A stretch of 64,000 nt of DNA from contig CAKKRK010000020.1 in assembly GCA_919902665.1 (NCBI GenBank), positions 62,001-126,000 of the forward strand, given 5' to 3'. Made by a program: the position numbers and the translations under genes. The stretch's first letter is position 1; each line of letters opens with the position of its first letter. The notes beneath the pieces were generated by a model. That model had not been told where the DNA came from. It did not search any database and saw only the letters and a program-made list of their open reading frames with translations. Of the stretch, positions 15,936 through 48,260 are shown piece by piece. The DNA is from Nitrospiraceae bacterium. GTDB taxonomy: Bacteria; Nitrospirota; Nitrospiria; Nitrospirales; Nitrospiraceae.

Positions 15936-16685
15936 ATGAGCAAGACTGCTTTACCACACGAGCGAAAATCATTTGCGGCCCAGGGAGCCAGACGCGAAGA
16001 GCTGATCAAGGAGTTTGCCCATGTTATTCGCGCGATGGCCCATCGGCTGGCCTTCCGCCTCCCGGCGTACCTCGACGCGGAGGATCTGATTTCGGTTGGC
16101 ACCATTGGACTCATGGATGCCATGGATAAGTATGATCCCACACGAGAGGCGAAGTTTAAGACTTATGCGGAGTTCAGAATTCGTGGCGCCATGCTCGATG
16201 AGATTCGATCGATGGATTGGATCCCGAGATCGGTTCATGAGCGTATCGGCTTGCTCCAAAAGACGCACACGATGCTGATGAGCCGATTGGGTCGGCCGCC
16301 CCAGGATGACGAGGTGGCAACAGAACTGAAGATGTCCCTGGAAGAGCTGGATGATTTCATTACACGGGCCAGAGGGGCGGTGATGATCAGTGTGGATGAT
16401 TTAGGCCTTCATGAACCAGACGGGCATAAAGTGGTCAAGATGTTGGCCGATACGCATACGCCGGATCCCCTGTCCTCATTGGTCAACGAGCGTGAACGTG
16501 AATTGATCGCCGAGGCCATCCAGAAGTTGCCGGAAAAAGAGCGCCTCGTTCTGAGCTTGTATTACTACGAGGAGCTTACGATGAAGGAAATCGGAGAGTT
16601 GCTAAAGGTCACTGAATCACGGGTTTGCCAAATCCATACCAAGGCTATCATCCAGCTCAAGGCACACTTGCATAAACCGAGTTGA
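15936..16685 (+). CDS. fliA: RNA polymerase sigma factor for flagellar operons (sigma-28)
   Basis: FliA directs late flagellar transcription and is held by FlgM, also encoded here. Region 2 reads YLDAEDLISVGTIGLMDAMD and KFKTYAEFRIRGAMLDEIRS. Region 3 contains SRLGRPPQDDEVATEL, and region 4 LPEKERLVLSLYYYEELTMK then VTESRVCQIHTKAI, the HTH that reads the -35. The 249-residue length is standard. It closes the operon that began at fliL. At least eight sites matching its expected promoter are found in this window. Confidence 0.97.
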   Translation: MSKTALPHERKSFAAQGARREELIKEFAHVIRAMAHRLAFRLPAYLDAEDLISVGTIGLMDAMDKYDPTREAKFKTYAEFRIRGAMLDEIRSMDWIPRSVHERIGLLQKTHTMLMSRLGRPPQDDEVATELKMSLEELDDFITRARGAVMISVDDLGLHEPDGHKVVKMLADTHTPDPLSSLVNERERELIAEAIQKLPEKERLVLSLYYYEELTMKEIGELLKVTESRVCQIHTKAIIQLKAHLHKPS

Positions 16686-17289
16686 TTCTATCTGCCGACC
16701 GACTCGGCTGAGTGCTCGATTGTCAGCGTGGTGAGACTATTCGCGATAGTCTGCGATGACTCGGCTTCAGTTCAGAGTCCTAGAACCCCGTACCACTCTA
16801 GAGGAGATCTCGACTAGTACCTGGTATAGCCAGGTCCTCAATCAGCAATCAAGATGATGCACATGAAGGTCTCACATCATGCGTTGCCACGATTGGAGCA
16901 ACGATCACTTGCATGGTGGTCTGTCTCAGCAACGGTGTGTGGCAGAAACATGGGGTGGATGGGGACGACACCGGCCGATTCTGGAATCCAGGCCGACTTC
17001 CTAGTGAATGGTCGATTAAACGAAGAGGGGAACAGGCTTATCGTGGCTGCTCCATTGCCATGGTTGACACGACCCGCAGTACGTCCCTTCCCTACAGTTT
17101 CGGGTCGGCATGAGGCGTCCCTCACCAGTCACCGCTAGGAATAATTTTCACCTTAGTGGGTAGAATCCACCCTCGCAGTATGGCAGGGGGATCCGATACC
17201 AGCCTGGTATTCCACAGCGGAAGTCAGTTCATGCCTGCATTTGGCTGAGTTCGTGTTCGATTTACAGTAATCTCTGCTCGGAACGAATC
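16686..17289. other. Long intergenic region between fliA and flgF
   Basis: About 600 bp with no gene I can support; frames near 16854-17138 on either strand look like chance. It contains a short hairpin ACCTGG-TATAG-CCAGGT (16819-16835) and a perfect 15-bp dyad at 17196-17210, both carrying CTGGTAT. Possibly a regulatory region for the flgF promoter. Confidence 0.5.
17196..17210. promoter_or_regulatory. Candidate operator: 15-bp perfect dyad
   Basis: ATACCAG-C-CTGGTAT is perfectly symmetric about one base and lies 80 bp upstream of the sigma-54 -24 element of flgF. That is a normal distance for an enhancer-binding protein, but which protein binds it is unknown. Confidence 0.35.
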
Positions 17290-17305
17290 TGGCATAAGGG
17301 TTGCT
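17290..17305 (+). promoter_or_regulatory. Sigma-54 promoter for flgF
   Basis: TGGCAT-AAGGG-TTGCT has GG and GC at exact -24/-12 spacing. Predicted start near 17316, with AAAAGGAG at 17320-17327 and the flgF ATG at 17335. Confidence 0.75.
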
Positions 17306-33595: not shown

Positions 33596-34219
33596 ATGAA
33601 CGGTAGCATGGGTAAAGAAGGACGATCGTTTTTCAGGCCGACCAAAGCAATGCGGGAATTGCTGGCACTCTGGGCATTGGCAGAAACCGGGCGGATGAGC
33701 CAGCATCGCCTCGGGAGAACAATCGGCGTAAGCAGCGCCATGGCGCACAATTACATGCAGACATTGTTGCGGGAAGAATTTGTTGTGGTAAGCGGTGAGA
33801 CGAATCGGACGAGGCGATACGTCGTCACGGCTAAAGGTTGTGCGTATTTGACGACGCTCGCACGGGAATATACGCGGGATATTGCACGCATGTATTCCGT
33901 CGTGAAAACTGAGATTGAAAAGCGGCTCCTCCGGATCTATGCGGACGGTGTGCAGAAGGTAGTCGTATTCGGTGCGGCGGAAACCGGGGAATTGATCTTC
34001 AGTGCTGCGAAATCAACGCCCCTAACAATCGTCGGCTGGGTCGATAACGATATCGCAAAACACAAGTATCGCTTCGGTGATCTTCACGTGTGTCCGCCGA
34101 ACACGATCGAATCATACAGCCCTGACGCGGTGCTGATTGCATCATCCGGCAAGACGGATGAGATCCATCGACAGCTTCGACATCTCTCGAAGAAAGGGAT
34201 CAACGTTGTCACCCTCTGA
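33596..34219 (+). CDS. Winged-helix regulator fused to a nucleotide-sugar-type Rossmann domain
   Basis: About 207 residues. The N-terminal 90 residues form a MarR-like winged helix (MRELLALWALAETGRMSQHR; GVSSAMAHNYMQTLLREEF). A helical linker leads to a Rossmann segment, VVVFGAAETGELIFSAA..IVGWVDNDIAKH, like the N-terminal domain of PglD/FlaA1-type sugar enzymes. This suggests a regulator that may sense an NDP-sugar; that role is inferred from domain order and position at the head of the island. Start ATG 33596 is uncertain. The next gene overlaps its end by 14 bp. Confidence 0.7.
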   Translation: MNGSMGKEGRSFFRPTKAMRELLALWALAETGRMSQHRLGRTIGVSSAMAHNYMQTLLREEFVVVSGETNRTRRYVVTAKGCAYLTTLAREYTRDIARMYSVVKTEIEKRLLRIYADGVQKVVVFGAAETGELIFSAAKSTPLTIVGWVDNDIAKHKYRFGDLHVCPPNTIESYSPDAVLIASSGKTDEIHRQLRHLSKKGINVVTL

Positions 34220-35273
34220 ACTCACACAGCCGCGGTATAGAGCGGGAATCATCGGCCTGGGGCAGATCGGCAATCTGTTCGATGGCGACCCTAAGAGAAA
34301 GGAAATCTGGACCCATGCGGGCGCCTACTTGGCGTTGTCCAACGTGATTCTGGCAGCCGGCGCCGATTCAGATGAACATCGCCGCCGCCAGTTTCTCCTT
34401 CGCAGCGTTGGGGCGAAGACATACGATGACTACCGCTCCATGCTGCAATTCGAAAACCTCGATGTATTGAGTGTGTGTACCCCGACCGCAATGCACCATG
34501 ACATGGTGCTGGCGGGTGTGCGGGCAGGGGTCAGGGCCATCCTTTGCGAAAAGCCGTTGGCGGCGACGCCGGGAGAGGCAGCCGAGATGGTCGAGGCGTG
34601 TCAGGCAGCTGGCATCATTTTGGCGGTGAACCATACTCGTCGATGGGAGCCAATTTATGTTCACGCTAAACTCCTTCTGGCTGAAGGAGTGATTGGCCGA
34701 ATAGAAGCGATCGTCGGCTATTATCCGGGCAAGGTTTTCACAATGGGGACCCATCTGTTCGACCTCATGCGATTCTTTGGTGGCGACATTCAGTGGGTGT
34801 GCGGGCAGTCGCCCGATCATTGGGCGGCGTCGGATGAAGAGGGAAACCTGTCCGGACAAGTCCGCTTCTGTTCTGGGGCCACTGGAAGCATCATCGCCGG
34901 ATGGGACCGGACCAACCATATTTTCGAGCTGGATATTTTCGGCAGTGCCGGTCGATTGCGTTTGTCGGGAGATGGAGCGGTGGCGGAGCTGCATCGTTTT
35001 GATGAGAGCCCTCGATACTCTGGCTATCGAGAGCTTGTGCCGATCGATGCAAATAGACCGTTCTACAGTGACGGGCAGTTGCAGACTTCCCGTCTGGTAG
35101 CCGCCGTCCGAGACCTGGTCGAATGCATCAGTACCAGGAAGACTCCGTCCTGCAGCGGGCGAGATGGACTAGCTGCGGTAGAGGTTGCCTGCGCGCTCTG
35201 CGAATCGGTCAAACGCGGCAGTATGCGAGTGGATTTTCCCTTTGTGCCGTCGGTATCAACCTGCCAAGTTTAG
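34206..35273 (+). CDS. Gfo/Idh/MocA family oxidoreductase
   Basis: NAD(P)-dependent sugar dehydrogenase fold, 355 residues. The N-terminal Rossmann motif is AGIIGLGQIGNLFDGD; VLSVCTPTAMHHDMVLAGVR and AILCEKPLAATPGEA give the conserved EKP motif, and AVNHTRRWEP follows. Such enzymes are often paired with DegT aminotransferases to oxidise C3 of a UDP-sugar before amination; the next gene is one. I use a TTG start at 34206 (AAAGGGA upstream), which overlaps the regulator. Substrate unknown. Confidence 0.85.
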   Translation: MSPSELTQPRYRAGIIGLGQIGNLFDGDPKRKEIWTHAGAYLALSNVILAAGADSDEHRRRQFLLRSVGAKTYDDYRSMLQFENLDVLSVCTPTAMHHDMVLAGVRAGVRAILCEKPLAATPGEAAEMVEACQAAGIILAVNHTRRWEPIYVHAKLLLAEGVIGRIEAIVGYYPGKVFTMGTHLFDLMRFFGGDIQWVCGQSPDHWAASDEEGNLSGQVRFCSGATGSIIAGWDRTNHIFELDIFGSAGRLRLSGDGAVAELHRFDESPRYSGYRELVPIDANRPFYSDGQLQTSRLVAAVRDLVECISTRKTPSCSGRDGLAAVEVACALCESVKRGSMRVDFPFVPSVSTCQV

Positions 35274-35294
35274 GCAGAATAAGAAGGAGGATGA

Positions 35295-36611
35295 GTGAAA
35301 ACTCTGGCGACAGCAAACAAGTTAGCGCTTCTAGGCGGCAAACCCATCCGCAGTATGCCGTTCCCTCCCTATCCGATCATCGGCAATGAAGAAAAACAGG
35401 CGGTCATGGAAGTGCTGGATTCCGGACATATATCGAGTTTCTCGGCTAGTCGGCAGGGATTTCTCGGTGGGCAAAAGGTCCAAGCCTTCGAGTCTGCCTT
35501 CGCCGGATATCATGCGGTTCGGTACGGCGTTGCATTCAACTCTGCGACTTCAGGTCTTCACGCAGCCGTCGCTGCCTGCGGGATCGGTCCTGGCGATGAA
35601 GTAATCGTTCCACCCTATAGCTTCACCGCAACTGCGACGGCGGTGCTCCATCACAACGCCATTCCCGTCTTTGCCGACATAGACCCGGTAACGTTTTGCT
35701 TGGATCCCCGCTCGTTCGAAGCCGCGATCACACCGCGAACGAAAGCTGTCATCTCCGTGCATCTACTCGGTCATCCAGCGGATATGGATCAGATCCTCGC
35801 CATCGCCAGGCGGCACAAACTGAAAGTGATAGAGGATTGTGCACAGGCACCGGGAGCAAAGTACAAGGGGCATCTGGCTGGCACCATGGGAGACTGCGCA
35901 ATCTATAGCTTCCAGGAAAGCAAAAACATGATGACAGGCGAAGGCGGCATGCTGATCACCAACGATTCGGACTTGGCCGAACAGGCGCGGATGGTGCGGA
36001 ACCACGGCGAGACAGTTATCGCGGGAGAGCCCCGCAAGTATTTGTCCCACACGATTGGGTGGAATTATCGGATGACTGAAATCGAGGCCGCGATCGGCAT
36101 AGTCCAGCTCAAGAAACTCGATCGGCAGAATGACGGCCGTAGGGAATTGGCCAAGCACCTGCTGGATCGGCTCCCGGCCATGCCTGGCCTGCGTTATCCG
36201 TCTGAGCCGAACGGCATTCACCATGTGTATCACGTATTCGGAATGACCTACGATGAGGGCCTCGTCGGTGTTCCGCGAAAACGGTTCATTGAAGCCCTGG
36301 TGGCAGAGGGTATTCCCGTCGGGTCAGGATATCCGAGGCCCCTGTATCACAATCCGATCTTCCAAGACCGAATGGCCTACGGCAAGCAAGGGTGCCCCTT
36401 CACCTGCCATCTCTATCAAGGCACTGTATCGTATGCCAAAGGTCTTTGCCCCGTGGCCGAAGACCTCTGTACCCGATCGGCTCTCTGGACCTTCGTCGCA
36501 CGCCCACCTGCCACGACTGATGATATGGACGACATCATCCGTGCGTTTGAAAAAGTAGTCGAAGCTATTCCGGAACTCAAGGAGAATAACCATGAAACTG
36601 CAATCCGATGA
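35295..36611 (+). CDS. DegT/DnrJ/EryC1 family PLP-dependent sugar aminotransferase
   Basis: A 438-residue fold-type I aminotransferase for NDP-keto-sugars. The motif YSFQESKNMMTGEGGMLITN carries the PLP lysine; IEDCAQAPGAKYKG and NSATSGLHAAVAACGIGPGD are standard. It could serve as the LegC/PseC step of nonulosonate synthesis or act with the preceding oxidoreductase on another amino sugar; the sequence alone does not decide. GTG start at 35295 after AAGGAGG. Overlaps the next gene by 20 bp. Confidence 0.9.
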   Translation: MKTLATANKLALLGGKPIRSMPFPPYPIIGNEEKQAVMEVLDSGHISSFSASRQGFLGGQKVQAFESAFAGYHAVRYGVAFNSATSGLHAAVAACGIGPGDEVIVPPYSFTATATAVLHHNAIPVFADIDPVTFCLDPRSFEAAITPRTKAVISVHLLGHPADMDQILAIARRHKLKVIEDCAQAPGAKYKGHLAGTMGDCAIYSFQESKNMMTGEGGMLITNDSDLAEQARMVRNHGETVIAGEPRKYLSHTIGWNYRMTEIEAAIGIVQLKKLDRQNDGRRELAKHLLDRLPAMPGLRYPSEPNGIHHVYHVFGMTYDEGLVGVPRKRFIEALVAEGIPVGSGYPRPLYHNPIFQDRMAYGKQGCPFTCHLYQGTVSYAKGLCPVAEDLCTRSALWTFVARPPATTDDMDDIIRAFEKVVEAIPELKENNHETAIR

Positions 36612-37317
36612 GTCTTGCGGTGTTATTGGAGTCATTCACGCTCGCGGTGGGTCGAAACGCATCCCGCTCAAAAATATCAAACTGCTCGCTGGCCGGCCGC
36701 TAATTGCCTATATGGTGGACGCGGCGATGGAAAGCCGGCTTCTGGATCGCGTCATCGTGTCGACTGACCACCCGGAAATAGCGAAGATCGCTCGGGAGCA
36801 TGGTGCGGAAGTTCCATTCATGCGGCCGGCGGATCTGTCCGAGGATGTTGCGTCAGAATTGGTGACGCAGCATGCCGTCCAGTTTGTCGAGGAAAGAGGT
36901 TATCCGGTGCGCATCGCTTTGACCATGCAGCCTACCACACCCTTCTGCACGAGCGAGGATATCGATGCCTGCATCGCCAAGATGCTCGAGACTGATTTGG
37001 ACACCGTGTTCACTGCCTGCGAAGTACATGAACGCCCGGAATGGATGTACTGGCTCAATGGTTCATGCGTGCTTCCTTTTACCGGCACTCTTGTGAAGGG
37101 CGATGCCGGGATCAGTCAGAAGCTGCAGAAGCTCTATATTCCCAATGGAGCAGTGTGGGCCACGAGACGGTCGGTGTTGATGGATCAGGGACTTATTACC
37201 GGGCCCAACAGCGGAATCGTCGTCATGTCGCGCGAGCGATCGGTCGATATCGATGAACCTGTTGATTTTGTCACAGCCGAAGCAATGGCGAACGAATTGA
37301 TGAAAGTGAGGGTGTAA
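36592..37317 (+). CDS. CMP-nonulosonate cytidylyltransferase (NeuA/LegF/PseF-like)
   Basis: Activates a nine-carbon acidic sugar as its CMP form. The 241-residue length is usual. The N-terminal signature GVIHARGGSKRIPLKNIKLL binds CTP; LTMQPTTPFCTSEDIDACI and the C-terminal SVDIDEPVDFVTAEAM are typical of the family. ATG at 36592 follows AAGGAG and lies within the end of the aminotransferase gene. The specific sugar (neuraminate, legionaminate or pseudaminate type) cannot be told here. Confidence 0.9.
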   Translation: MKLQSDESCGVIGVIHARGGSKRIPLKNIKLLAGRPLIAYMVDAAMESRLLDRVIVSTDHPEIAKIAREHGAEVPFMRPADLSEDVASELVTQHAVQFVEERGYPVRIALTMQPTTPFCTSEDIDACIAKMLETDLDTVFTACEVHERPEWMYWLNGSCVLPFTGTLVKGDAGISQKLQKLYIPNGAVWATRRSVLMDQGLITGPNSGIVVMSRERSVDIDEPVDFVTAEAMANELMKVRV

Positions 37318-37319
37318 TT

Positions 37320-37523
37320 ATGGCGAAACTCATCGGCAATTATAAGATATCCGGACAGCCGGACGAGAGAGAAACGGAGTCTACCGTGAAGAAAGAAGAT
37401 ACGGTGGGCGATTTCGAGCGGAAGGCCATGGCACGACTTGGCGGCAGCATCGCGTTCGTCATGAAAGGCAAGAACGTGGTCTGGAACGGCGCGCCACCGA
37501 AAGACGGAGCCGATAAATCATGA
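37320..37523 (+). CDS. Small hypothetical protein of the glycosylation island
   Basis: A 67-residue charged protein (MAKLIGNYKISGQPDERE; ERKAMARLGGSIAFVMKGKN) lying two bases after the cytidylyltransferase stop and overlapping the next gene by four bases, which indicates real translation within the operon. No family recognised, no membrane segment. Confidence 0.65.
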   Translation: MAKLIGNYKISGQPDERETESTVKKEDTVGDFERKAMARLGGSIAFVMKGKNVVWNGAPPKDGADKS

Positions 37524-38554
37524 AGAGCGCGCTCAACCAGGCGGAATTGTCTCTGGTCGCACAGGCCACCTTCAATAAAACGGCCAATATCGGATTCAAG
37601 CACGCGCAGGAAAATCTGGGGTACATGGACAAGACGATCTTGGATGTACCCAAGCCTGATGCATCCAAGGGGCCAGCCGCAATTGCCATGTCCGCGGGAC
37701 CCAGCTTACACAGGCGCCGGACCATCGAGCGAATCCGGGACAGCGCATTCAAGGGGGTCATCGTCGCGGCGGACGGTGCTCTGGGGCATTGCCTCCGAAA
37801 CGGCGTCGTGCCGGATTACGTGGTGACGGTCGATCCTCATCCCTATTGGATCATACGCTGGTTTGGCGATCCCGATCTAAGGAGCCGTCCGGAAGATGAT
37901 TATTTTCGCCGCCAAGACTTGGATCCGGCGCTGAATAGCCGTGAGCAGGAGCGGAACGACGAATTGATTGAGCTAGTGAATGCGCATGGCCCGAAGATCA
38001 AGGTCATTATCGCCACCTGCGTCGCGCCCAACGTGACGCGGCGGTGCCTGCAGGCGGGGATGTCGCTTTATTGGTGGAATCCGATCTGTGACGATTACGA
38101 TGATCCGGCGGGCCACACACGCCGCCTGTACGACATGACCAAAATGCCTTGTATGGTCACCGGAGGAAATTGCGGCGCCTCCGCCTGGATCTTTGCGAAA
38201 GCGATTCTTGAACGAGATCCCGTGGCGATGGTGGGCATGGACCTCGGCTATGCTCCGGGAACGCCTCTGCAGAAGACCCAATATTATCACGAACTCATCA
38301 AGTTTTATCCCGTAGACCGGCTGGAACAGGCCTACATTGCGATGTATAACCCGCATCTGAACGAGACCTGGTTCACCGATCCGACCTACTACTGGTACCG
38401 GCAGTGCTTTCTCGATGTCGTGAGGCAGTCGGGCTGGACAGCCCAGAATTGTACGGAAGGCGGCACGTTGTTCGGCGACGGAATCGAGTGCGTGCCCCTT
38501 GATCGATTCATAACGGAACACGGAGGCGTTCAGCCGACGGCGACTCAGTGCTGA
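37520..38554 (+). CDS. DUF115 (MptE/Maf-like) protein, short form
   Basis: A 344-residue protein with AIAMSAGPSLHRRR, GVIVAADGALGHCLRNGVVP and DYVVTVDPHP, the core motifs of the DUF115 family that includes Maf flagellin glycosyltransferases. It lacks the long N- and C-terminal regions of the second DUF115 gene (44452-47097). TGGNCGASAWIFAKAILERDPVAMVGMDL-type residues complete the domain. Probably a nonulosonate transferase or a partner of one; not proven by sequence. Confidence 0.82.
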   Translation: MKSALNQAELSLVAQATFNKTANIGFKHAQENLGYMDKTILDVPKPDASKGPAAIAMSAGPSLHRRRTIERIRDSAFKGVIVAADGALGHCLRNGVVPDYVVTVDPHPYWIIRWFGDPDLRSRPEDDYFRRQDLDPALNSREQERNDELIELVNAHGPKIKVIIATCVAPNVTRRCLQAGMSLYWWNPICDDYDDPAGHTRRLYDMTKMPCMVTGGNCGASAWIFAKAILERDPVAMVGMDLGYAPGTPLQKTQYYHELIKFYPVDRLEQAYIAMYNPHLNETWFTDPTYYWYRQCFLDVVRQSGWTAQNCTEGGTLFGDGIECVPLDRFITEHGGVQPTATQC

Positions 38555-38585
38555 CCGCTAAGTGCGGATTGCGAAGGAGAGAACG

Positions 38586-40187
38586 ATGGCCAAGGTCCTC
38601 ATCATCAATCCAGTGATACGCGCCGAAGACGATCCGAGACATGTGCCGTATGGGCTGGCTTTGCTCGCGGCAGTCGCGAATCGTGAAGGTCATGAAATCC
38701 AAGTGTTCGATGCGAACGGCTGGCGTCCGACCGACGAGGAACTGATTGAGGCCATTCAAGCCGATGCTTGGGATGTTATTGCCACTGGCGGCATCACAAC
38801 CGCCTATGGATATATGAAAAAGACCGTGCGCCTTGCCAGGAAGAATGCACCCGATGCGCTCATCATGATGGGCGGCGGCGCGTTGACTGCCATGCCTCGG
38901 GACATCATGGGCTTCTGTCCTGAAATCGACATCGGGGGGATTGGGGAGGGCGTCATTACGTTTCCCGATGTCCTCAAGAAAATCGATGAAGGCCGGAACC
39001 GGAAGAGCGATTGGTCTGACGTCCAGGGCATCATTTGGCGAACGACGCGGGGAGATGTCGTCCTCAATGCAGAGCGTCCGCTTCTTGATAACATCGACAG
39101 TTTGCCGTTTCCGATGTACGAATTGTTCCCTCTCGATATCTACTTCAAGAATTCCTGCATTTTGCTTTCTGAAGAAGCCATGCTGGCGAAACGGAGACTG
39201 GATATCAACATGTCCTACGGTTGTTCGCTCATTTGCCGGTTCTGTTTTCATCTCGGGCTGACGGGCGACATGAAGTATGAGCAGACCGATCGTAGTGACG
39301 GAGGCGATGTGGTGTTCAACAACGACCGCAACATCCGCTGGCACAGCCCCGAGTTTGTAGTCAGACAGGTGAAGTATATGAAGGAACGGTTCAACGTCGA
39401 TTTCGTCTCCTTCCTCGATGAGAATCTCATGACGATGCATGTATCGACGAAAAAGAAGTGGCTGTTCGAAATTTGCGATCTCTGGATCAAAGAGGGGCTG
39501 CAGCCGACGTGTGTGAGGGACGGAGTGCCGCACGATCCCAATACCTGCGACGGCGTGCATTGGGGTGGGACGAGCCATGCCACGCTTGCCTATCCCGAAG
39601 TGTTGCAGGCCATGCACAAAGCCGGGTGCACATATCTTGATTATGGCTTGGAGTCATTTTCCGACCGTGTGCTCAAAACGATCGGCAAGGGTGCAACGGT
39701 CAAGACGAATGAACGGTGCCTGAAGATTACGATGGAAGCCGGTATCCGGCCGATTCCGAATCAGATCATCGGATTTCCTGACGAGTTTTTCGACAGCCTC
39801 TACGACAACGTGGCGTTCTGGGACCGGATTGGGATCATGGTCAAGCCGTTCTTTGCCACACCCTATCCGGGCTCTGAATGGTATTACACCTATAAAGACT
39901 GGATTATCGAGCAGTATGGCGGCGATCTGGAGGCCTTCATCCTCGACGTCGGCGATGCCACAAAGATCACCGCCGTGATTTCCCACAATTTCAACGCCGT
40001 TGAGCTGCTCGGCCTCCGCGAGCTGATGCTTCAGCACGATGTCAAGCGCATCAAAGAGTATGAGACTTACTGGCGGTCCATTCATGGCGAACCCCGTTTT
40101 GCCAAAGATGTGCTGGCAGAGAAAGTGACAGCGGGGAAAACCGCGCCGCTTGTGCAACTGACAAAGCGGCTTGTTGCAGTGGCGTAG
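38586..40187 (+). CDS. Radical SAM protein with B12-binding-like N-terminal domain
   Basis: A 533-residue protein. Residues 1-130 form a cobalamin-binding-like fold (KVLIINPVIRAEDDP; VIATGGITTAYGYM; ALIMMGGGALTAMP), but the DxHxxG cobalamin-ligand motif is not seen. The radical SAM cluster motif is C-x3-C-x2-C in NMSYGCSLICRFCFHLG (near residue 210). A third part (FIGFPDEF-like, here IIGFPDEFFDSLYDN) is usual for class B enzymes. It may methylate or rearrange a sugar in this pathway. ATG at 38586 after AAGGAGAG. Confidence 0.88.
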   Translation: MAKVLIINPVIRAEDDPRHVPYGLALLAAVANREGHEIQVFDANGWRPTDEELIEAIQADAWDVIATGGITTAYGYMKKTVRLARKNAPDALIMMGGGALTAMPRDIMGFCPEIDIGGIGEGVITFPDVLKKIDEGRNRKSDWSDVQGIIWRTTRGDVVLNAERPLLDNIDSLPFPMYELFPLDIYFKNSCILLSEEAMLAKRRLDINMSYGCSLICRFCFHLGLTGDMKYEQTDRSDGGDVVFNNDRNIRWHSPEFVVRQVKYMKERFNVDFVSFLDENLMTMHVSTKKKWLFEICDLWIKEGLQPTCVRDGVPHDPNTCDGVHWGGTSHATLAYPEVLQAMHKAGCTYLDYGLESFSDRVLKTIGKGATVKTNERCLKITMEAGIRPIPNQIIGFPDEFFDSLYDNVAFWDRIGIMVKPFFATPYPGSEWYYTYKDWIIEQYGGDLEAFILDVGDATKITAVISHNFNAVELLGLRELMLQHDVKRIKEYETYWRSIHGEPRFAKDVLAEKVTAGKTAPLVQLTKRLVAVA

Positions 40188-40196
40188 GAGGCATTT

Positions 40197-41252
40197 ATGG
40201 CATCTTCATGTGAGCGCAACTTACAGAGGATCAGAGTCGGATCGCGCGAAATCGGCGACGGTCAGCCGCCCTTCGTCATTGCCGAAGTCGGCATCAATCA
40301 TAACGGGGACGTGAACCTGGCCAAGCAGATGGTCCTCGCGGCGAAAGAAGCCGGAGCCCATTGCATCAAGTTCCAGACCCATCTCACCGGCAAGGAGATG
40401 ATCCACACGCAGATGACGCCGGGCGCCATCAGCAAGGAACCGCTCTGGGATATCATTACACGGTGTGAGTTGACGGCTACGGAAGAACGGGCCGTGAAGC
40501 GACTCTGCGACGAGGTGGGAATCCTGTTTCTCTCGACTCCCTTTTCACGGGAAGCGGCCGATCAACTGGAAGAATTGGGGATTCCGGCCTACAAAATCGG
40601 CTCTGGTGAGATCACAAATCTTCCGCTTATCGAACATGTCGCCAAGAAAGGGCTGCCGATGATCGTCTCGACCGGCATGACCGAGCTGGATGAGATTGCA
40701 GAGACAGTGAATCTCATCGAGCGCTACGACGTGCCGTTGATCCTGCTGCAATGCACCTCCACCTATCCGACGGCCTATGCGGATGTAAAGTTGGGGGCTA
40801 TCCAGGTCTTGCGAGAACGATTCGGCGTGCCGGTCGGCCTCTCCGATCATTCGGTCGGTATCTACACCGCACTGGGCGCGGTGGCCAAGGGTGCCTGCGT
40901 CTTGGAAAAGCATTTCACAACCAGCCGTCAGTTGCCGGGGCCGGATCAAGGCCTCTCTCTCGAACCGCACGAACTGAAAGAACTCGTGAAGGGCGCGGAC
41001 GCCATCTATCAGGCTCTCGGCTCAGAGAAAGCCATCTTGGGCAAGGAGCGTCCGGTGTTGGGATTCGCTCGTGCTTCTGTCGTCGTCATCAAACCAGTCG
41101 CAGCAGGAGACCGGTTCACCGATGAGAATCTCTGGGTGAAACGTCCGGCCGACGGCGAGATTCCGGCCCGGGAATACAAGAAGCTGCTTGGACGGGTCGC
41201 CAAGGTGCCGATGCAGCCGGATCATCAAATCAAGTGGAGCGAAGTGGCGTGA
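40197..41252 (+). CDS. N-acetylneuraminate/legionaminate synthase family protein (NeuB-like)
   Basis: Condenses phosphoenolpyruvate with a six-carbon amino sugar to give a nonulosonic acid. The 351 residues contain PFVIAEVGINHNGDVNLAKQ, AHCIKFQTH, IPAYKIGSGEITNLPLI and VGLSDHSVGIYTALGAVAKG, with EKHFTTSRQLPGPDQGLSLEP near the active site. A C-terminal SAF/antifreeze-like domain (about 290-351) follows. SD is AGGAGG; its stop overlaps the next ATG (TGATG). Confidence 0.95.
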   Translation: MASSCERNLQRIRVGSREIGDGQPPFVIAEVGINHNGDVNLAKQMVLAAKEAGAHCIKFQTHLTGKEMIHTQMTPGAISKEPLWDIITRCELTATEERAVKRLCDEVGILFLSTPFSREAADQLEELGIPAYKIGSGEITNLPLIEHVAKKGLPMIVSTGMTELDEIAETVNLIERYDVPLILLQCTSTYPTAYADVKLGAIQVLRERFGVPVGLSDHSVGIYTALGAVAKGACVLEKHFTTSRQLPGPDQGLSLEPHELKELVKGADAIYQALGSEKAILGKERPVLGFARASVVVIKPVAAGDRFTDENLWVKRPADGEIPAREYKKLLGRVAKVPMQPDHQIKWSEVA

Positions 41253-42445
41253 TGCGTACCATTGTCATTGTTACCGAACGACGAGCGGATTATAGCCGGT
41301 TCAAGCCGATTCTTGAGTTGATCCGGGAGGACCCAGATCTCGACTACAAGCTTATTGTCACCGGCATTTCCCTGATGGCGGAGCATGGACGAGATATTGA
41401 CGTGATCAAGCGGGACGGCTTTACCATTGAAGCGACGATTCCGATGTTTCTGGATCAGGCGCCGGACACCGGGGCAGAGATGACCAGGGCCATCGGTCGG
41501 GTGCTTCCCGGGTTGGTCGATCTGTTCGAGCGTCTTCGCCCGGACATCATTCTGTCGGGATTCGATATCGGAGCCAATTTTGCCACGACCGTGGTCGGCG
41601 CCCACATGAACATCCCGGTGGCTCATATTCAAGGTGGAGAAGTCACCGGCAGCATTGACGAATCGCTTCGCCATGCGATGTCGAAATTCGCCCATCTGCA
41701 TTTTCCCGCCACGGAAGACGCGGCTCAACGCTTGATCCGTATGGGGGAACATCCGAAATCTGTCTTCGTGGTCGGCTGTCCTTCATTGGATGTGGTGCTG
41801 CACACGCCCGTCGACTCCAAGTCCGAGGTGCTGGCGGCGCATGGGCTCGATCCGGAACAGCCCTATGTCGTCATCCTGCAGCATCCGGTCACGACGGAAG
41901 TCATGCAGGCGGGAGAGCAAATTCAGGAGACCTTGGCTGCCGTGCAAGAGATGCGGATCCAAGGCGTGCTCATCTATCCGAATAACGATGCCGGCGCACA
42001 ACAGATCATCCAGCACATCAAACAGAGCCGTATTGCCGTCGTGCGCAGTCTCCCCCCTGAAGGGTTCGTCAATCTGGTGCGGTATGCCGCGGCGCTCGTC
42101 GGGAACTCCAGCAGTGGGATCCACGAAACCGCGAGCCTGGGTGTGCCGACCGTGAATATCGGCAGCAGGCAACAGGGGCGTGAACGGCCCTGTAACGTCC
42201 TGGATGCGGGCAATGACCGTGAGGCGATTAAACAGGCCCTGGAAGTGGCCCTCTACGATCAAGCCTTCAAGGCGAAAGTCGCAGAACGGGTGAATCCCTA
42301 TGGGGACGGCCATTCTGCAGAACGCATCGTTCGTATTTTGAAGACCGTGTCACTAGATAATCTCATTCAGAAAAGGTTTTACGATGGCGAACCAGACTAT
42401 CGCGGTGATCGGCGGGACCGGATTTATCGGAAGGCATGTGCTTGA
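41252..42445 (+). CDS. UDP-N-acetylglucosamine 2-epimerase, hydrolysing type (NeuC/LegG-like)
   Basis: Releases the free six-carbon sugar used by the synthase. The 397-residue protein opens TIVIVTERRADYSRFKPILE, a typical NeuC start, and has VAHIQGGEVTGSIDESLRHAMSK, the family core. AALVGNSSSGIHETASLGVPTVNIGSRQQGRE closes the active site. The ATG at 41252 overlaps the neuB-like stop. Its 3' end overlaps the next gene by 62 bp. Confidence 0.93.
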   Translation: MRTIVIVTERRADYSRFKPILELIREDPDLDYKLIVTGISLMAEHGRDIDVIKRDGFTIEATIPMFLDQAPDTGAEMTRAIGRVLPGLVDLFERLRPDIILSGFDIGANFATTVVGAHMNIPVAHIQGGEVTGSIDESLRHAMSKFAHLHFPATEDAAQRLIRMGEHPKSVFVVGCPSLDVVLHTPVDSKSEVLAAHGLDPEQPYVVILQHPVTTEVMQAGEQIQETLAAVQEMRIQGVLIYPNNDAGAQQIIQHIKQSRIAVVRSLPPEGFVNLVRYAAALVGNSSSGIHETASLGVPTVNIGSRQQGRERPCNVLDAGNDREAIKQALEVALYDQAFKAKVAERVNPYGDGHSAERIVRILKTVSLDNLIQKRFYDGEPDYRGDRRDRIYRKACA

Positions 42446-43286
42446 AGCGCTCACCGCGCAGCCGGTCAGGGTGCTTGTGCATCGCAACCAGCCCTCATGG
42501 CTGAAGGACCTTGAGCATGTCGAGCCGATTCAAGGGGACATCTTCGACCCCGCAGCACTCGATCATCTCTTGCAGGGCTGTGAAGTGATGATCAATCTGA
42601 CCGGGCAAGTCGAAGGTCCGGTGGATCGGTATCTGGACGTCAACGTGAGAGGCACCCTCAATCTGGCACAGGCCTGTCTTCGTCAGCGTCTGCCGCGCGT
42701 GATCCATGCCTCCTCCGCGCTCGTCTACGGGGATGTGCTCAATGCCACGGAAGAGAGTCCTTGTCACCCCTTCTCACCCTACGCCACCATGAAATGCGCG
42801 GCGGAAGATATCATCTGCTCGCTGCTCAGCCCGACGACAGAGGTGATGTGTTTTAGGCTGTCGAATGTGTATGGCCCAGCTCAGACCAAGGGATTGATTC
42901 CCTATCTGTTGAACTGTATCCGCAGCCGGCAACGCATCTCTATCGATGCCGATGGGGCGCAAACCAGAGACTTCGTCTATGTGAAGGACGTGGCCGCGGC
43001 GTTTGCGAAGGCCCTGACGACGTCTGACTGGGTTGATCGCGTCAACATCGGATCAGGCGTTCCCACCAGCGTGATCACGCTCTTGCGCCATATTGAAGAA
43101 GTGTTGGAGCTTCCCGCGATCGGGCAATATTGCCCAGAACATACCGGCGGTGAACGGCGCAATACCGTGGCGATCGATCGAGCCCTATCTGCTCTATCCT
43201 GGCGTGCCACGACAACATTGGATGAGGGATTGCGCGCGATCCTGCGTGCGCAGACGCACACGGTTCATCATGAGGTGGCGGCATGA
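42384..43286 (+). CDS. NAD-dependent epimerase/dehydratase (extended SDR)
   Basis: A 300-residue nucleotide-sugar enzyme. The Rossmann motif is IAVIGGTGFIGRHVLEAL and the catalytic pair is YATMK in FSPYATMKCAAED; ASSALVYGDV gives the upstream Ser. RLSNVYGPAQTKGLIPYLL fits the family. Exact reaction unknown. The start at 42384 overlaps the preceding gene by 62 bp, unusual but in frame with a good N-terminus. Overlaps the next gene by four bases. Confidence 0.88.
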   Translation: MANQTIAVIGGTGFIGRHVLEALTAQPVRVLVHRNQPSWLKDLEHVEPIQGDIFDPAALDHLLQGCEVMINLTGQVEGPVDRYLDVNVRGTLNLAQACLRQRLPRVIHASSALVYGDVLNATEESPCHPFSPYATMKCAAEDIICSLLSPTTEVMCFRLSNVYGPAQTKGLIPYLLNCIRSRQRISIDADGAQTRDFVYVKDVAAAFAKALTTSDWVDRVNIGSGVPTSVITLLRHIEEVLELPAIGQYCPEHTGGERRNTVAIDRALSALSWRATTTLDEGLRAILRAQTHTVHHEVAA

Positions 43287-44353
43287 GGCAGTTCATCGAA
43301 GGCAAGACGATCCTCGTGACCGGGGGGACCGGTTCCATCGGATCCGAGATCGTGCGACAACTCCTCACCTACGATCCCAAGATGGTTCGGGTGTTGTCTC
43401 GCAGCGAGCACATGCAATATCAGCTGATTCAGGAACTGGGGCGTTTGCCGAACCTCGTCTGTTTCATTGGAGATGTGCGGGACCCTGAACGATTGAATCG
43501 CGCCTCGGTCGAGGCCGACGTGATTTTTCACGTGGCCGCGATGAAACATGTGCCTCTCTGTGAGTTCAACGCGTTCGAAGCTATCGAGTCGAATGTCATC
43601 GGCGCGCAGAATGTCATCAACGCCGCCATCACGAACAAAGTGAAACAGGTTATTGCGATCAGCACGGACAAGGCCGTGAATCCGATGAACGTGATGGGCG
43701 CAACCAAATTACTGGCGGAAAAACTGTTCACGAGCGCGCACCATTATGCCGGTGTCAGCGGGACCAAGTTCGCCTGCGTCCGGTTCGGCAACGTATTGGG
43801 GTCCCGGGGATCCGTCGTGCCGGCCTGGATCGATCAGATCGTCAAGGGTCAGCCGGTGACGATCACGGATCCGGATATGACCCGCTTCTTCTTATCGATT
43901 CCGCAAGCCGTGAGTTTGGTGTTCAAGGCGATGAACCGCATGGTCGGAGGGGAGATCTTCATCTTGAAGATGCCGGTGTTGCGCATGGGGGACCTGGCGG
44001 AGGCGGTCATTCAGCATTTTTCGCCGGATCAGGGCATCGATCCCTCGGCCGTCGAACGAAAGATTGTGGGGATCAGGCCGGGCGAGAAGATGTACGAACT
44101 CCTCATGACGGAAGACGAATCGTCTATCGCCTTGGAGGTCGACGAGATGTTCATCATCCCGCCGCATATCGAAATTCCCCATCGAGGACTGAAGCGCCGC
44201 ACCTATGAAGGCGCCCAACCGGCGCCGACGGCAGGATACGATTCCAGGCGCGATCTGCCACTCGGACGTCGGTCGATTCTTCAAATGTTGCAAGAAGTGT
44301 TTCCCGAAAGAGTTCGGCGTCCGAGCCCCCATCGTGCGGCGTTGACAGCCTAA
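43283..44353 (+). CDS. UDP-GlcNAc 4,6-dehydratase-like protein (PseB/LegB/CapD short form)
   Basis: First committed step of many bacterial nonulosonate pathways. The 356-residue product has KTILVTGGTGSIGSEIVRQLL, VIFHVAAMKHVPLCEFN, and the catalytic STDKAVNPMNVMGATKLLAE; GVSGTKFACVRFGNVLGSRG follows. It lacks the membrane domain of FlaA1/CapD. Whether it inverts C5 (PseB) or retains it (LegB) is not decided. Starts in the stop of the preceding gene (ATGA). Confidence 0.92.
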   Translation: MRQFIEGKTILVTGGTGSIGSEIVRQLLTYDPKMVRVLSRSEHMQYQLIQELGRLPNLVCFIGDVRDPERLNRASVEADVIFHVAAMKHVPLCEFNAFEAIESNVIGAQNVINAAITNKVKQVIAISTDKAVNPMNVMGATKLLAEKLFTSAHHYAGVSGTKFACVRFGNVLGSRGSVVPAWIDQIVKGQPVTITDPDMTRFFLSIPQAVSLVFKAMNRMVGGEIFILKMPVLRMGDLAEAVIQHFSPDQGIDPSAVERKIVGIRPGEKMYELLMTEDESSIALEVDEMFIIPPHIEIPHRGLKRRTYEGAQPAPTAGYDSRRDLPLGRRSILQMLQEVFPERVRRPSPHRAALTA

Positions 44354-44451
44354 CCCGTTGGGTCAAGGTAGATAGGCCGAAAGCTTGTAGTCTTCAGCCT
44401 ATAGCCTGAATACCTGAGTCGTTCCCACAGTCTTATCGAAAGGACTCTCCC

Positions 44452-47097
44452 ATGAGCTTCCTCGAACAGAACCTCGCCATCATGGAAACACGCGATCCGG
44501 AGTTGGCGGCGCTCATGCGCAGCGACATCGATTGCAGCCATATCGAAGTCCTTCCGTCGCATCAGCCCGATGTGATGACGGCAAGGGTCACGCTGCCATC
44601 CGGCGAACAGGTCCTGCTCCATAATATCGAAGACCCGATCGGCAGCGCCGTCCGCTCGGCTGAGAAACAGGAAATGAAAGCCGCGAATGGGTCGATCCTG
44701 CTCGGGTTCGGGCTCGGATACTTAGCGATCGAGCTGGCGAAGAAGGTGGAAAAGAAACATCCGATCATCATCTGCGAAGCGGACTCGGCCATGTTGAAAA
44801 CCGCGCTCACGCAGATGGATCTAGCGACGGTGTTGGAGTCGGACTATATTCGAATCCTGGTCGACGCTGAAATCGATCTGCCAAGCTGGATTCACAGACT
44901 GTCGGTCAAGTTCATGACCGCCAAGGTCGACGTGATTTCCTATGGCCCTTCCATTCGACTCTATCCGGACATCTACGAGAGGCTGACGCAGATTGCGCAC
45001 AAGGAGTCGATGGCGATCGTATTGAACCGGAACACGACCCTGAAAGCCGGCGCAAGGATGATGGAGAATGTGCTCCTGAACTTTCCGGATGTGTTGCGGT
45101 CGTCGGGCGTGAAACGCCTCGAAAATTTGTTTCAGGGAAGACCGGCAGTGTTGGTGGCAGCGGGGCCTTCGCTGGAAAAGAACGTACATTTGCTTCTAGA
45201 GTTGCAGGGGCGCGCGGTGATTATTGCAGTCGATACGGCATTGCGTTTACTGCTCCCCCTCGGCATCAAGCCGGATATTGTGACCACGATCGATTTCAAT
45301 CAGGTCAATTTTCAGAAGTTTGCCAACGTGCCGATCGACCAGGATATCTCGCTCGTCTATCACCCGGGAGGGTATTACGAAAGCATTCGTGCCTTTCAGG
45401 GGCCACGGTTCACCTCTTCATGGGTGCCGAACCGGATCCCTGCATGGCTCATGCAGTATCTGGAGCGTAAGGGGGCCCTTTCGTCAGGCACGACGGTCGC
45501 GCACATGTCGTTTTTCCTCGCCCGGCATATGGGATGCGACCCGATCGTGTTCATCGGGCAGGACCTGGCCTTTCCTAAGAACCAAGTGCATGCCAGCGAC
45601 CTGTCGCTCTGGAACATCGATACCGATGAAATGGACACCATTGAGGACATTTTCGGTGAACCGGTCGGTAGCATGAGCTCCTTCAAACATGCCATCTACT
45701 ACTTTGAGAAGGCCTTCAAGGAGACGCAGGCGACCATCATCGACGCGACCGAAGCGGGGGCGAAAAAGCAGGGTGCCCGTCCCCTGCGCCTACGCGAAGT
45801 GATCGACGAATACTGCAATCTCCCCCCGTTGGATATCAAGGGGATGCTGCGAGACGCAGCCAGGACTGTGGAGAGTGCGCGAACGGCGGAGTTGCTGAGG
45901 GATATGGACTTCATTAGTTCTGAGCTCGGTTGCATCACGAAGGAATGCCGGGAAGTCGTGTCGGTGTCGAGGAAGTTAAAGGCCAAGATCGACAAAAGCG
46001 AGATGGACGATGAGCAGTTCTGCAGGCTTTCGGAGAGGGCCGAACGGCTCACTCAACAGATGGACAGCCATGGGCGGGCTCTCTATCTCATGGGGGAGCA
46101 GAACTATGCGCTGGAACTGTACATGATGCAGCATGATGTGGAGGCGATCGACGAGATTGAGGACACCAATCAGAAGATTACGAAGCAGGTGGAGCGAGCC
46201 GCGGTGTACTACCCGAGTGTCGCCCGCGCTGCAGCGAACTTTAAAAATCCACTCGATCGATTGATTGATCGCCTGAAGCGTGCCCAGGAATTGGACCTGC
46301 AGCCGCCTGGCTCCGATGCGACAGCCGAAGATTGGTATCAGCGCGGGGTTGCGTACGGCAAGATCGATTATGGAAGAGAGGCGCTCCAGTCCGTTCAGGA
46401 GGCCTTGGCACGCGACTCCGATCATGTGCCGGCGTTAAAGTTTGCTGCTTCGTTGTTCCTGGCCGCCAATCGGACCAGTGAAGCCCTGGACGTATTGGCG
46501 CAGTTGAGAGGCCTCACGCGATCCGATCGGAAACTTGAAGGATTAGTGCAAGAGGCACAGGCCAAGCACCAGGCCTGGGAGACCCGCACGGCCCGTTTGA
46601 AAGAAGAGTTCGCAGGAAAGGTCCCGACAGAATCCCTCGAAGAAGCCGGGTGGTTTTATTACCGGACGAAGGATTACACCAGGGCGATTTCCATCTTGGC
46701 GCGTGCGGCCCTGCAGCATCCCACTGCGGAAACCTATGCGAAGCTCGGCCATGCCAAGCTGAAACTGGAGCAGCGAGACGGCGCGGTTGAAGCCTGGGAG
46801 CAGGCGCTAGCCCTCGATCCCTCACGAGCCGATCTGTACAAGGCGATGGGGGACTTGGCCTTAGAACAAGGGTCTGAGAAACAAGCCGAGGCTTTTCTCC
46901 AAGAGGCCTGCCGTTTGGAAGAGGACGATCTCGACGCTTTTGAGAAACTGGCGCGTCTCTATCTCAAGCGTGGAGCCAACATGGAAGCGGGGCTCTGTTA
47001 TGAGAATATGCTTCGCTTGGTGCCCAACCGGACGGATTTGATGTTGCAGATCGCGGCCCTCTATCAACGCCAAGTGTCGTTGGCGACGACGCAATGA
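44452..47097 (+). CDS. Maf-type motility accessory glycosyltransferase (DUF115) with TPR tail
   Basis: An 881-residue protein, the likely transferase that places the nonulosonate on flagellin. The N-terminal part has a Rossmann-like domain (ILLGFGLGYLAIELAKKVEK). The DUF115 core covers about residues 225-420 (AVLVAAGPSLEKNVHLLLEL; IIAVDTALRLLLPLGIKPDI; VFIGQDLAF). A helical region leads to tetratricopeptide repeats at about 620-880 (DWYQRGVAYGKIDYGREALQ; AVEAWEQALALDPSRADLYK). TPRs may bind flagellin or chaperones. Ends overlapping the next ATG. Confidence 0.9.
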   Translation: MSFLEQNLAIMETRDPELAALMRSDIDCSHIEVLPSHQPDVMTARVTLPSGEQVLLHNIEDPIGSAVRSAEKQEMKAANGSILLGFGLGYLAIELAKKVEKKHPIIICEADSAMLKTALTQMDLATVLESDYIRILVDAEIDLPSWIHRLSVKFMTAKVDVISYGPSIRLYPDIYERLTQIAHKESMAIVLNRNTTLKAGARMMENVLLNFPDVLRSSGVKRLENLFQGRPAVLVAAGPSLEKNVHLLLELQGRAVIIAVDTALRLLLPLGIKPDIVTTIDFNQVNFQKFANVPIDQDISLVYHPGGYYESIRAFQGPRFTSSWVPNRIPAWLMQYLERKGALSSGTTVAHMSFFLARHMGCDPIVFIGQDLAFPKNQVHASDLSLWNIDTDEMDTIEDIFGEPVGSMSSFKHAIYYFEKAFKETQATIIDATEAGAKKQGARPLRLREVIDEYCNLPPLDIKGMLRDAARTVESARTAELLRDMDFISSELGCITKECREVVSVSRKLKAKIDKSEMDDEQFCRLSERAERLTQQMDSHGRALYLMGEQNYALELYMMQHDVEAIDEIEDTNQKITKQVERAAVYYPSVARAAANFKNPLDRLIDRLKRAQELDLQPPGSDATAEDWYQRGVAYGKIDYGREALQSVQEALARDSDHVPALKFAASLFLAANRTSEALDVLAQLRGLTRSDRKLEGLVQEAQAKHQAWETRTARLKEEFAGKVPTESLEEAGWFYYRTKDYTRAISILARAALQHPTAETYAKLGHAKLKLEQRDGAVEAWEQALALDPSRADLYKAMGDLALEQGSEKQAEAFLQEACRLEEDDLDAFEKLARLYLKRGANMEAGLCYENMLRLVPNRTDLMLQIAALYQRQVSLATTQ

Positions 47098-48260
47098 AGA
47101 GGGGGCAGAGGCCTGAGGCGAGAGGCGAGGGTGGGAGGCTGGATCCTCTTGCCTCTCGCCCTTCGCCTTTGGCCATTGTAGAGAAATTCGTCGTGTACAA
47201 GGGCTCTCAGAATGAGGCCTTGTTCCCTGGCCTCACGAGGGCTGCGAACGGAGACCTTCTGGTCAGTTTCTGCACCCAGTTCGATTGTCAGACGGGGGGA
47301 GAGGCGTTTCTGATTCGTTCCATGGACGAAGGCCGGACCTGGGACAGGCCAATTTCAATCGTGCGCTCCCAGAGACCGGACGGCTGTATCAACCTCTCCG
47401 TCGGTCTGACCACGCTTAGGAATGGCACGGTACTGTATCCCTGCTGCGACACCAAGATTACGCGCAAGTGGGATCAACATGAAGCGGATCTATTGATTCT
47501 GCGTTCCCATAACCATGGGGTTACATGGTCCGAGCCAATCCCGATCCCTACCGACGTGATCGAACCCTTCGCCTATGGCAAGATTCTTGAGCTCAGGAAC
47601 GGCGATCTCCTCTGTCCGGTTTGGGGGAAGCGGCAATCCGATGAACCTTGGCGGACAGGCCTGGTCCGTTCCCGAGACGGCGGCCAGACATGGGGTGAAC
47701 ATGTCACCATCGGGTACGACCCTCACACGAGAATTCCATCACCTCAGGATGAGGTGGTGCATTGTGCCGGATTCAACGAAGCGACGTTGGTGGAGCTGCC
47801 TGACGGGCATGTTATGGCCGTTCTGCGCCAGCAAGGCGTGGGACCGGATGTCAGGCAAATGTTCCAGAGTTTTTCCCCGGACGGTGGCCTCACCTGGTCT
47901 GAGCCCCAGCCGATGTCTCTCTGGGGCACCTCTCCGTCCCTCCATTTGACTGCTTCCGGGCTCCTCCTCCTCGGATACCGAAACCATAGGGGAAATCCTC
48001 AAGGGCTTGCGACACCTGGCGTCGGCCTGAGCCTGAGCGAAGATTTCGGCGCGACATGGGTCAAGCATCGGTTGCTCGAAGATCCCCAAGGCTACCAATA
48101 TCAACATGAGTTCGAAGCAGGCTACCCGGCGTTTCTCGACCTCGACCGTCATCGGACCCTAGTGGTGTTCTACAGTTTCGACCCCACTCTCACCTCTCAA
48201 CGCTACCTGGCAGCCAACCTGCTTCACGTCGATCTGCTAATGAGCACAAGCCGCCACTAA
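47094..48260 (+). CDS. Sialidase-like BNR/Asp-box protein, no signal peptide
   Basis: A 388-residue six-bladed-propeller type protein. Five Asp-boxes are visible: SMDEGRTWDRP, SHNHGVTWSEP, SRDGGQTWGEH, SPDGGLTWSEP and SEDFGATWVKH. There is no export signal, so it would act in the cytoplasm, perhaps on a glycoconjugate or free nonulosonate. The ATG overlaps the Maf gene stop (ATGA), but codons 2-27 lie on a repeat hairpin and look unlike protein. The conserved part starts near IVEKFVVYKGSQNEALFPGL, so a later TTG or GTG is possible. Confidence 0.85.
   Translation: MKRGQRPEARGEGGRLDPLASRPSPLAIVEKFVVYKGSQNEALFPGLTRAANGDLLVSFCTQFDCQTGGEAFLIRSMDEGRTWDRPISIVRSQRPDGCINLSVGLTTLRNGTVLYPCCDTKITRKWDQHEADLLILRSHNHGVTWSEPIPIPTDVIEPFAYGKILELRNGDLLCPVWGKRQSDEPWRTGLVRSRDGGQTWGEHVTIGYDPHTRIPSPQDEVVHCAGFNEATLVELPDGHVMAVLRQQGVGPDVRQMFQSFSPDGGLTWSEPQPMSLWGTSPSLHLTASGLLLLGYRNHRGNPQGLATPGVGLSLSEDFGATWVKHRLLEDPQGYQYQHEFEAGYPAFLDLDRHRTLVVFYSFDPTLTSQRYLAANLLHVDLLMSTSRH
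47117..47160. repeat. REP-like hairpin inside the 5' end of the sialidase-like gene
   Basis: GGCGAGAGGCGAG (47117-47129) pairs with CTTGCCTCTCGCC (47148-47160) at 12 of 13 positions, with an 18-base loop. A related GAGAGGCGAGAG string occurs in the flgM leader (about 22420-22432). It looks like an intergenic repeat that has been read into a coding frame. Confidence 0.6.

Follow-up and report, generated by a model that had tools for sequence, protein, structure and literature searches.

A flagellin-linked nonulosonate island in Nitrospira with a strictly paired short DUF115 protein and radical SAM protein

Gene content of the island

We analysed a window of 64,000 nucleotides from a Nitrospiraceae bacterium (GenBank assembly GCA_919902665.1, contig CAKKRK010000020.1, positions 62,001 to 126,000), whose genome is 3.56 Mb long and 99.86% complete. 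At 33596-48260 of this window, counted from its first letter, lies an island of 12 genes, all on the plus strand, that leads in one run into the genes of flagellin, FliD, and FliS. A reading of the sequence alone (the sequence-only reading) had named these genes and proposed a nonulosonate island tied to flagellin and endowed with an unusual set of enzymes. Gene-by-gene annotation found the genes in place, on one strand and ending at flagellin, and the peculiarity of the enzyme set was borne out. The gene order is not a matter of chance, because it is found again in other Nitrospira metagenome-assembled genomes (MAGs; loci L033, L036, L038, and L043).

The island opens with a winged-helix regulator-like protein of the HTH/NAD kind (33596..34219), which has a Rossmann half resembling the N-terminal part of PglD/NeuD and lacks the acetyltransferase half; a MarR_EPS-type homologue stands at the same island border in a planctomycete (G410). 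It is followed by a Gfo/Idh/MocA oxidoreductase (Gfo/Idh, 34215..35273), a DegT-family pyridoxal phosphate (PLP) aminotransferase that we call DegT2 (35295..36611), a PseF-like CMP-nonulosonate cytidylyltransferase (CMP-transferase, 36592..37317), a short DUF115 protein (DUF115s, PF01973, 37520..38554), and a B12-binding radical SAM protein (rSAM, 38562..40187, the conserved start being probably at 38586). Then come a NeuB nonulosonate synthase (40197..41252), a NeuC-type hydrolysing 2-epimerase (41234..42445), an extended short-chain dehydrogenase/reductase (SDR) that looks like a reductase or an epimerase (42384..43286), a UDP-GlcNAc 4,6-dehydratase of PseB/Pen-like type (43283..44353), a Maf glycosyltransferase in which DUF115 is followed by a TPR tail (Maf-TPR, 44452..47097), and a sialidase-like protein with five BNR/Asp boxes (BNR protein, 47094..48260), next to which the flagellin gene starts (48471..50393).

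A strict pair of a Maf-type domain and a radical SAM protein

The pair formed by DUF115s and rSAM is the most novel part of the island. DUF115s lies directly upstream of rSAM in all of the 27 genomes whose rSAM surroundings were read, and further Nitrospira loci, partly from genomes already counted, show the same adjacency. Among 395 Nitrospirota genomes, the profiles of the two proteins (E 1e-90 and 1e-20) retrieve an identical set of 7, and among 297 genomes in the order of the alphaproteobacterial Paramagnetospirillum an identical set of 16. In the planctomycete phylum the rSAM profile, the one of the two searched there, retrieves 3 genomes out of 392. Among our genome and 58 relatives, rSAM at E 1e-60 is present in two (our own and G053). 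In Nitrospira and other Nitrospirota MAG loci the rSAM genes are 86-92% identical and the order is largely kept. One locus (L044:10016-11822, MAG RSF8) has an rSAM matching over its first 184 residues only, followed by Gfo/Idh, by rearrangement or misassembly. No relatives of rSAM were found in phages, and those on plasmids are distant (at most 26% identity among the matches listed, the best 10 of 33 records).

DUF115s is predicted to be a stand-alone catalytic domain of the Maf type. Both DUF115 proteins of the island exceed the 34.6-bit cut-off for the MptE-like domain (54.7 bits for DUF115s, 150.5 for Maf-TPR). The AlphaFold model of DUF115s (pLDDT 83.0, pTM 0.85, 12 alignment rows) best matches residues 238-516 of the Maf structure 5mu5 (Z 20.0, rmsd 3.2, 236 aligned) and then an archaeal HPPK of the MptE type (Z 13.5), which suggests that it folds like the Maf catalytic domain; its match to human ST8SiaIII with a CMP-sugar analogue (Z 7.9) may mean only a common arrangement. 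The rSAM protein has a B12-binding domain and a CxxxCxxC motif whose three cysteines are invariant in 11 of 11 rows. Its model, of middling confidence (pLDDT 73.8, pTM 0.72, 11 rows), best matches AprD4 with paromamine, an amino sugar (Z 21.9, rmsd 3.5, 398 aligned), followed by OxsB (Z 20.0), MgmA (19.7), and TsrM (19.3), matches which imply a full-length B12-type radical SAM fold. No sequence relatives were found among solved structures at E 0.001. The fold and domains are those of AprD4, OxsB, HpnJ, and BchE, but none of the 15 NCBIfam families matched is over its cut-off, which leaves rSAM in no named subfamily, and its partner is a Maf-type transferase.

These data lead us to suggest, tentatively, that DUF115s and the B12-type rSAM are an obligate two-gene machine, present in at least three phyla, which would modify nonulosonate glycans by radical chemistry (C-methylation, deoxygenation, or ring change). 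In Nitrospira it would act on a flagellin-bound amino-nonulosonate, which an oxidase and an aminotransferase would produce from the complete nine-carbon sugar. DUF115s, as a stand-alone Maf domain, would take the CMP-sugar as substrate, and rSAM, its obligate partner, would modify either the sugar or the glycosylated acceptor. The radical-modified product put forward by the sequence-only reading, still putative, gains support from the strictness of the pairing.

The surroundings of the pair in 17 distant loci (stretches of at most 20 kb, with genes labelled by best BLAST match to a small reference set) bear on its target. At least one best match of nonulosonate type (NeuB-, NeuC-, PtmE-, or CMP-type) is present in 15 of them, the exceptions being L114 and L117. 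Several observations weigh against a machine dedicated to an aminated flagellin sugar: flagellar proteins are the best match in none of the 17 loci, DegT2 is found in one (L108), a Gfo/Idh of the island's kind in four (E 1e-10), and the model of rSAM is of the limited quality given above. Given the rarity of DegT2 and Gfo/Idh, rSAM is independent of the amination. The acceptor of the pair might instead be a protein, a lipid, or another surface glycan, with the pair standing in the island incidentally. The lack of flagellar genes in the distant loci fits this idea, as do the recurrence of ABC exporters at the loci of the pair (the family is found in 10, L041 included) and the separate history of this part of the island, described below. 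We nevertheless find it unlikely, since nonulosonate genes accompany the pair in most distant loci and since in those Nitrospira loci whose stretch is long enough, apart from the rearranged L044, the pair stands between the CMP-transferase and NeuB with flagellar genes adjoining. The sequence-only reading had set the flagellin assignment against one to lipopolysaccharide-specific clusters; for the locus as a whole the latter was not borne out, but the pair itself is not specific to flagella.

Other proteins recur near the pair. Proteins of 570-720 aa are repeatedly found in L102-L116, with no Pfam match in the five scanned. Radical SAM/SPASM proteins adjoin the same modules (L041:5163-6257; L064:13336-14370 and 16276-17304); the scanned L064 protein reaches 78 of the 250 bits required by the spiro-SPASM model. 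Nonulosonate loci thus have radical enzymes of a second kind.

An aminotransferase outside the LegC clade

The aminotransferase had been taken for the step that follows the 4,6-dehydratase, and this part of the sequence-only reading was not supported. First, DegT2 forms with its homologues in other Nitrospira, L041, L063, L064, and L108 a clade (100/100) apart from that of LegC (100/98). Second, it scores below the NCBIfam cut-offs of both LegC (231 vs 420 bits) and PseC (248.9 vs 423.5 bits). Third, LegB and LegC over their cut-offs coexist with Gfo/Idh-DegT2 in three distant clusters: L063, L064, and the planctomycete G410, whose cluster consists of L041 and L080, on one contig and not joined. 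The genes of L063 are in the order LegB, LegC, LegH, LegI, LegG, PtmE-like, and then Gfo/Idh, DegT2, CMP-transferase, DUF115s, rSAM, and Maf. DegT2 keeps its catalytic lysine (SKNMMTGEGG); it is a clade of its own and is unlikely to be the LegC or PseC step. A DegT gene should not be named LegC or PseC by default just for standing in a nonulosonate island, a naming trap that is corrected here.

The neighbours of DegT2 offer another role. Gfo/Idh is 35-38% identical to its homologues in L041 and L063. The CMP-transferase, below the PseF cut-off (152.3 vs 205.7 bits), belongs to a clade of 10 (98/95) that unites the window gene with the DegT2 loci and with L113b and L115; DegT2 was not found in the stretches read around the last two, and the clade mostly tracks loci with Gfo/Idh-DegT2. 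Because of its coupling to the Gfo/Idh gene and to the CMP-transferase, DegT2 more likely tailors the finished sugar. Gfo/Idh would oxidise one free hydroxyl of this sugar, at C4 or C8, DegT2 would convert the oxidised position into an amine, and the CMP-transferase would activate the product. An 8-amino nonulosonic acid exists in nature (PMC3210612). If the proposal is true, Gfo/Idh and DegT2 may be the kind of genes that produce amino-nonulosonates, among them the 8-amino sugar in the O-antigen of Flexibacter (Tenacibaculum) maritimus. The split of the L064 Gfo/Idh into two frames counts against it.

Two other identities were considered for this pair of genes. GnnA/GnnB and NtdC/NtdA provide the model for 3-amination of UDP-GlcNAc. 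We think a precursor step of this kind unlikely, because C3 of the hexose becomes C6, a ring carbon, of the nonulosonate. Close orthology of Gfo/Idh with PtmF was rejected: at 1e-5, BLAST does not match it to the PtmF from Escherichia coli O108, although position and family agree. The oxidoreductase had been listed among the additions to the nonulosonate set; the gene is there, but Gfo/Idh beside a CMP-transferase is normal in nonulosonate clusters, as in O108.

These results make it improbable that the dehydratase and DegT2 give a 4-amino sugar of the legionaminic (Leg) or pseudaminic (Pse) type, acetylated by an unrecognised acetyltransferase. Both enzymes do resemble PseB and PseC, and PMC7371886 mentions a Leg cluster of Aliivibrio that has two aminotransferases. 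Against this stand the position of DegT2 outside the LegC clade, its presence beside LegC in three clusters, its lasting coupling to Gfo/Idh, and a synthase that is neither LegI nor PseI. The acetyltransferase is also wanting: the sequence-only reading saw none, and the whole genome holds no PseH and no NeuD/LegH-type enzyme over curated cut-offs, a search limited to these two families, so that a GNAT outside them could exist. A hexapeptide acetyltransferase is encoded in L063 and L064; the L063 copy, the only one scanned for this, is over the NeuD cut-off.

The core sugar

The synthase, the one NeuB match in its genome, groups with NeuB of Neisseria meningitidis, Alistipes, the polysialyltransferase locus of Sinorhizobium meliloti, and a planctomycete (100/98), in a neuraminic-type clade separate from the LegI set (98/97) and outside that of PseI. 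It scores 360.2 bits against the NCBIfam NeuB model (cut-off 399.65) and 266.4 against PseI (cut-off 340.25). NeuC is over its cut-off (382 vs 235.9 bits) and forms a lineage of its own, apart from the NeuC of neuraminic loci. The SDR has the motifs SSALVYG and YATMK and no TDE/TSE dehydratase motif. It was rejected as LegB (118 of 475 bits; SSALVYG instead of TSEVYG), and it is a weak candidate for Pal of the Pen-Pal pair, since 6bwl (whose chain is named Pal) matches at 65.6 bits, below many epimerases. The solved structures nearest to the dehydratase are Pen (6bwc, 290.8 bits) and PseB (277.0), then CapE and PglF; it scores 336.8 bits against the PseB model (cut-off 407.75) and 64 against LegB (cut-off 475). 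Methionine replaces its catalytic tyrosine, as in CapE. SpsM is a UDP-GlcNAc 4,6-dehydratase that feeds a nonulosonate, and its active site is reported to be of the Met/Lys type (PMC7439481).

The frames of these four genes overlap and follow one another in the reverse of the pathway's order, and all four have the lower divergence described below. We infer a route in which the dehydratase would yield a UDP-4-keto-6-deoxy-HexNAc, the SDR would reduce the ketone, NeuC would take off UDP and invert C2, and NeuB would join the sugar with phosphoenolpyruvate, giving a 9-deoxy nonulosonate with a single acetamido group. Since this core would carry one acetamido group, no acetyltransferase would be needed. 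The trideoxy form of fusaminic acid, mentioned in PMC7371886, offers a comparison. No PseG hydrolase is among the annotated genes of the island, the set in which it was looked for.

Three points count against this route: the grouping of the synthase with N. meningitidis NeuB, a Neu5Ac synthase that uses ManNAc and not a 6-deoxy sugar; the separate lineage of NeuC; and the SDR, which could be an epimerase. A serious rival, if a rather unlikely one, is that the core is ordinary Neu5Ac, made from UDP-GlcNAc by NeuC, NeuB, and the CMP-transferase. The product of the dehydratase and SDR would then be a 6-deoxy-HexNAc of its own, and Gfo/Idh-DegT2 would act on that sugar or on Neu5Ac. The NeuB clade, shared with a locus of CMP-transferase, NeuB, NeuC, and polysialyltransferase in S. 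meliloti, speaks for it, as do the missing acetyltransferases of the two tested families and the BNR protein gene adjoining Maf. It is less compatible with a dehydratase and an SDR whose genes form a single coding run with the overlapping NeuC and, like NeuB and NeuC, are less diverged, with a NeuC outside the group of neuraminic loci, and with a synthase below the NeuB cut-off.

Two modules with separate histories

Fourfold-degenerate sites of the genes from the HTH protein to DUF115s differ by 61, 60, 57, and 55% from L033, L036, L043, and L038, respectively, against 21, 41, 35, and 38% for those from NeuB to the dehydratase; rSAM is intermediate (46-54%). The Fisher tests on these sites treat them as independent. 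In L033 and L045 divergence drops where rSAM meets NeuB, near 40.2 kb; the drop is milder in L036, L038, and L043, and in L037 the start of NeuB is just 66% identical against 88% for rSAM. This drop indicates at least two blocks with separate histories. The flagellin end is mosaic too, because FliC, FliD, and FliS diverge unequally (L081 and L082; G137: FliC 95.8%, FliD 77%; G199: FliD 92%; FliS 67%).

We regard as quite plausible, a little short of even confidence, a flagellin glycosylation island of two modules: module B (NeuB, NeuC, SDR, dehydratase, Maf-TPR, BNR protein, and FliC) would make the 9-deoxy core and attach it, Maf-TPR putting the nonulosonate on flagellin, and module A (Gfo/Idh, DegT2, CMP-transferase, DUF115s, and rSAM) would tailor it. 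Gene content, clades, pairing, folds, and mosaic history are what the computation gave us; each chemical step, the order of steps, and the acceptor are what we infer from them.

Relation to known systems

The legionaminic islands of Campylobacter jejuni and Plesiomonas (LegB, C, H, G, I, F, PtmA, E, F, and Maf) likewise have NeuB-, NeuC-, and CMP-type genes and an oxidoreductase gene beside flagellar genes, and in the equivalent of E. coli O108 the oxidoreductase is a Gfo/Idh, as in the window. However, the window is devoid of LegB, LegC, LegH, and PtmE, has a PseB-like dehydratase and an SDR instead, and adds DegT2, DUF115s, and rSAM. The neuraminic clusters of N. meningitidis, S. meliloti, and Alistipes share the synthase clade, but the loci read from the last two do not show the set of PseB-like dehydratase, SDR, DegT2, and rSAM, and their NeuC is of another lineage. 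The Kdo8N pathway of Shewanella, with KdnA and KdnB, oxidises a finished ulosonic acid and then aminates it with PLP, the logic proposed here. KdnA is homologous to DegT2 (204 bits, the seventh-best solved match), whereas KdnB is of another family than Gfo/Idh, the oxidase of the window. The legionaminic sps pathway of Bacillus subtilis resembles ours in its Met/Lys-site dehydratase feeding a nonulosonate but has its own acetyltransferase and serves the spore crust (PMC7439481). EpaA/EpaB and AciE are also oxidoreductases that change a nonulosonate, at C8, but by epimerisation, and they come with neither an aminotransferase nor a radical enzyme (PMC12053666).

Among the papers listed for radical SAM together with flagellin, glycosylation, Maf, or nonulosonates, screened partly by title or abstract and with few subscription papers, we found none on a radical enzyme that takes part in glycosylation with nonulosonates, and no description of the DUF115s-rSAM partnership; none of the papers listed for Nitrospira flagellin with sialic acid treats the subject, judged by title, and the spiro-SPASM literature gave nothing useful. 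If the proposed role of the pair is true, radical SAM chemistry enters nonulosonate and flagellin glycosylation, and DUF115s-rSAM is a clear marker for mining genomes.

Flagellin, the BNR protein, and a haloarchaeal relative

Flagellin has matches in 36 of the 59 genomes (our own and 58 relatives). With 640 aa it is unusually long for the genus, about twice the length of the others: its frame has 652 codons and that of G053 626, against about 240-313 in other genomes of the genus, two of which have still shorter, apparently cut frames. The island carrier G137 has a flagellin of 639 aa, 95.8% identical to ours. The length of the flagellin is by itself no sign of the island, because G046 has a frame of 612 codons and no rSAM match. 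In G137 an additional gene of 263 aa stands between Maf-TPR and the BNR protein (L081:3487-4278). RIP is the N-terminal sialidase motif; the BNR protein has FPGL in its place near the N-terminus and may thus not be a standard sialidase. The closest plasmid-borne dehydratase (48%) is found on a haloarchaeal plasmid (L119:13846-27258), which also holds NeuB, NeuC, a CMP-transferase, Gfo/Idh, a formyltransferase, a PIG-L deacetylase, and a DegT.

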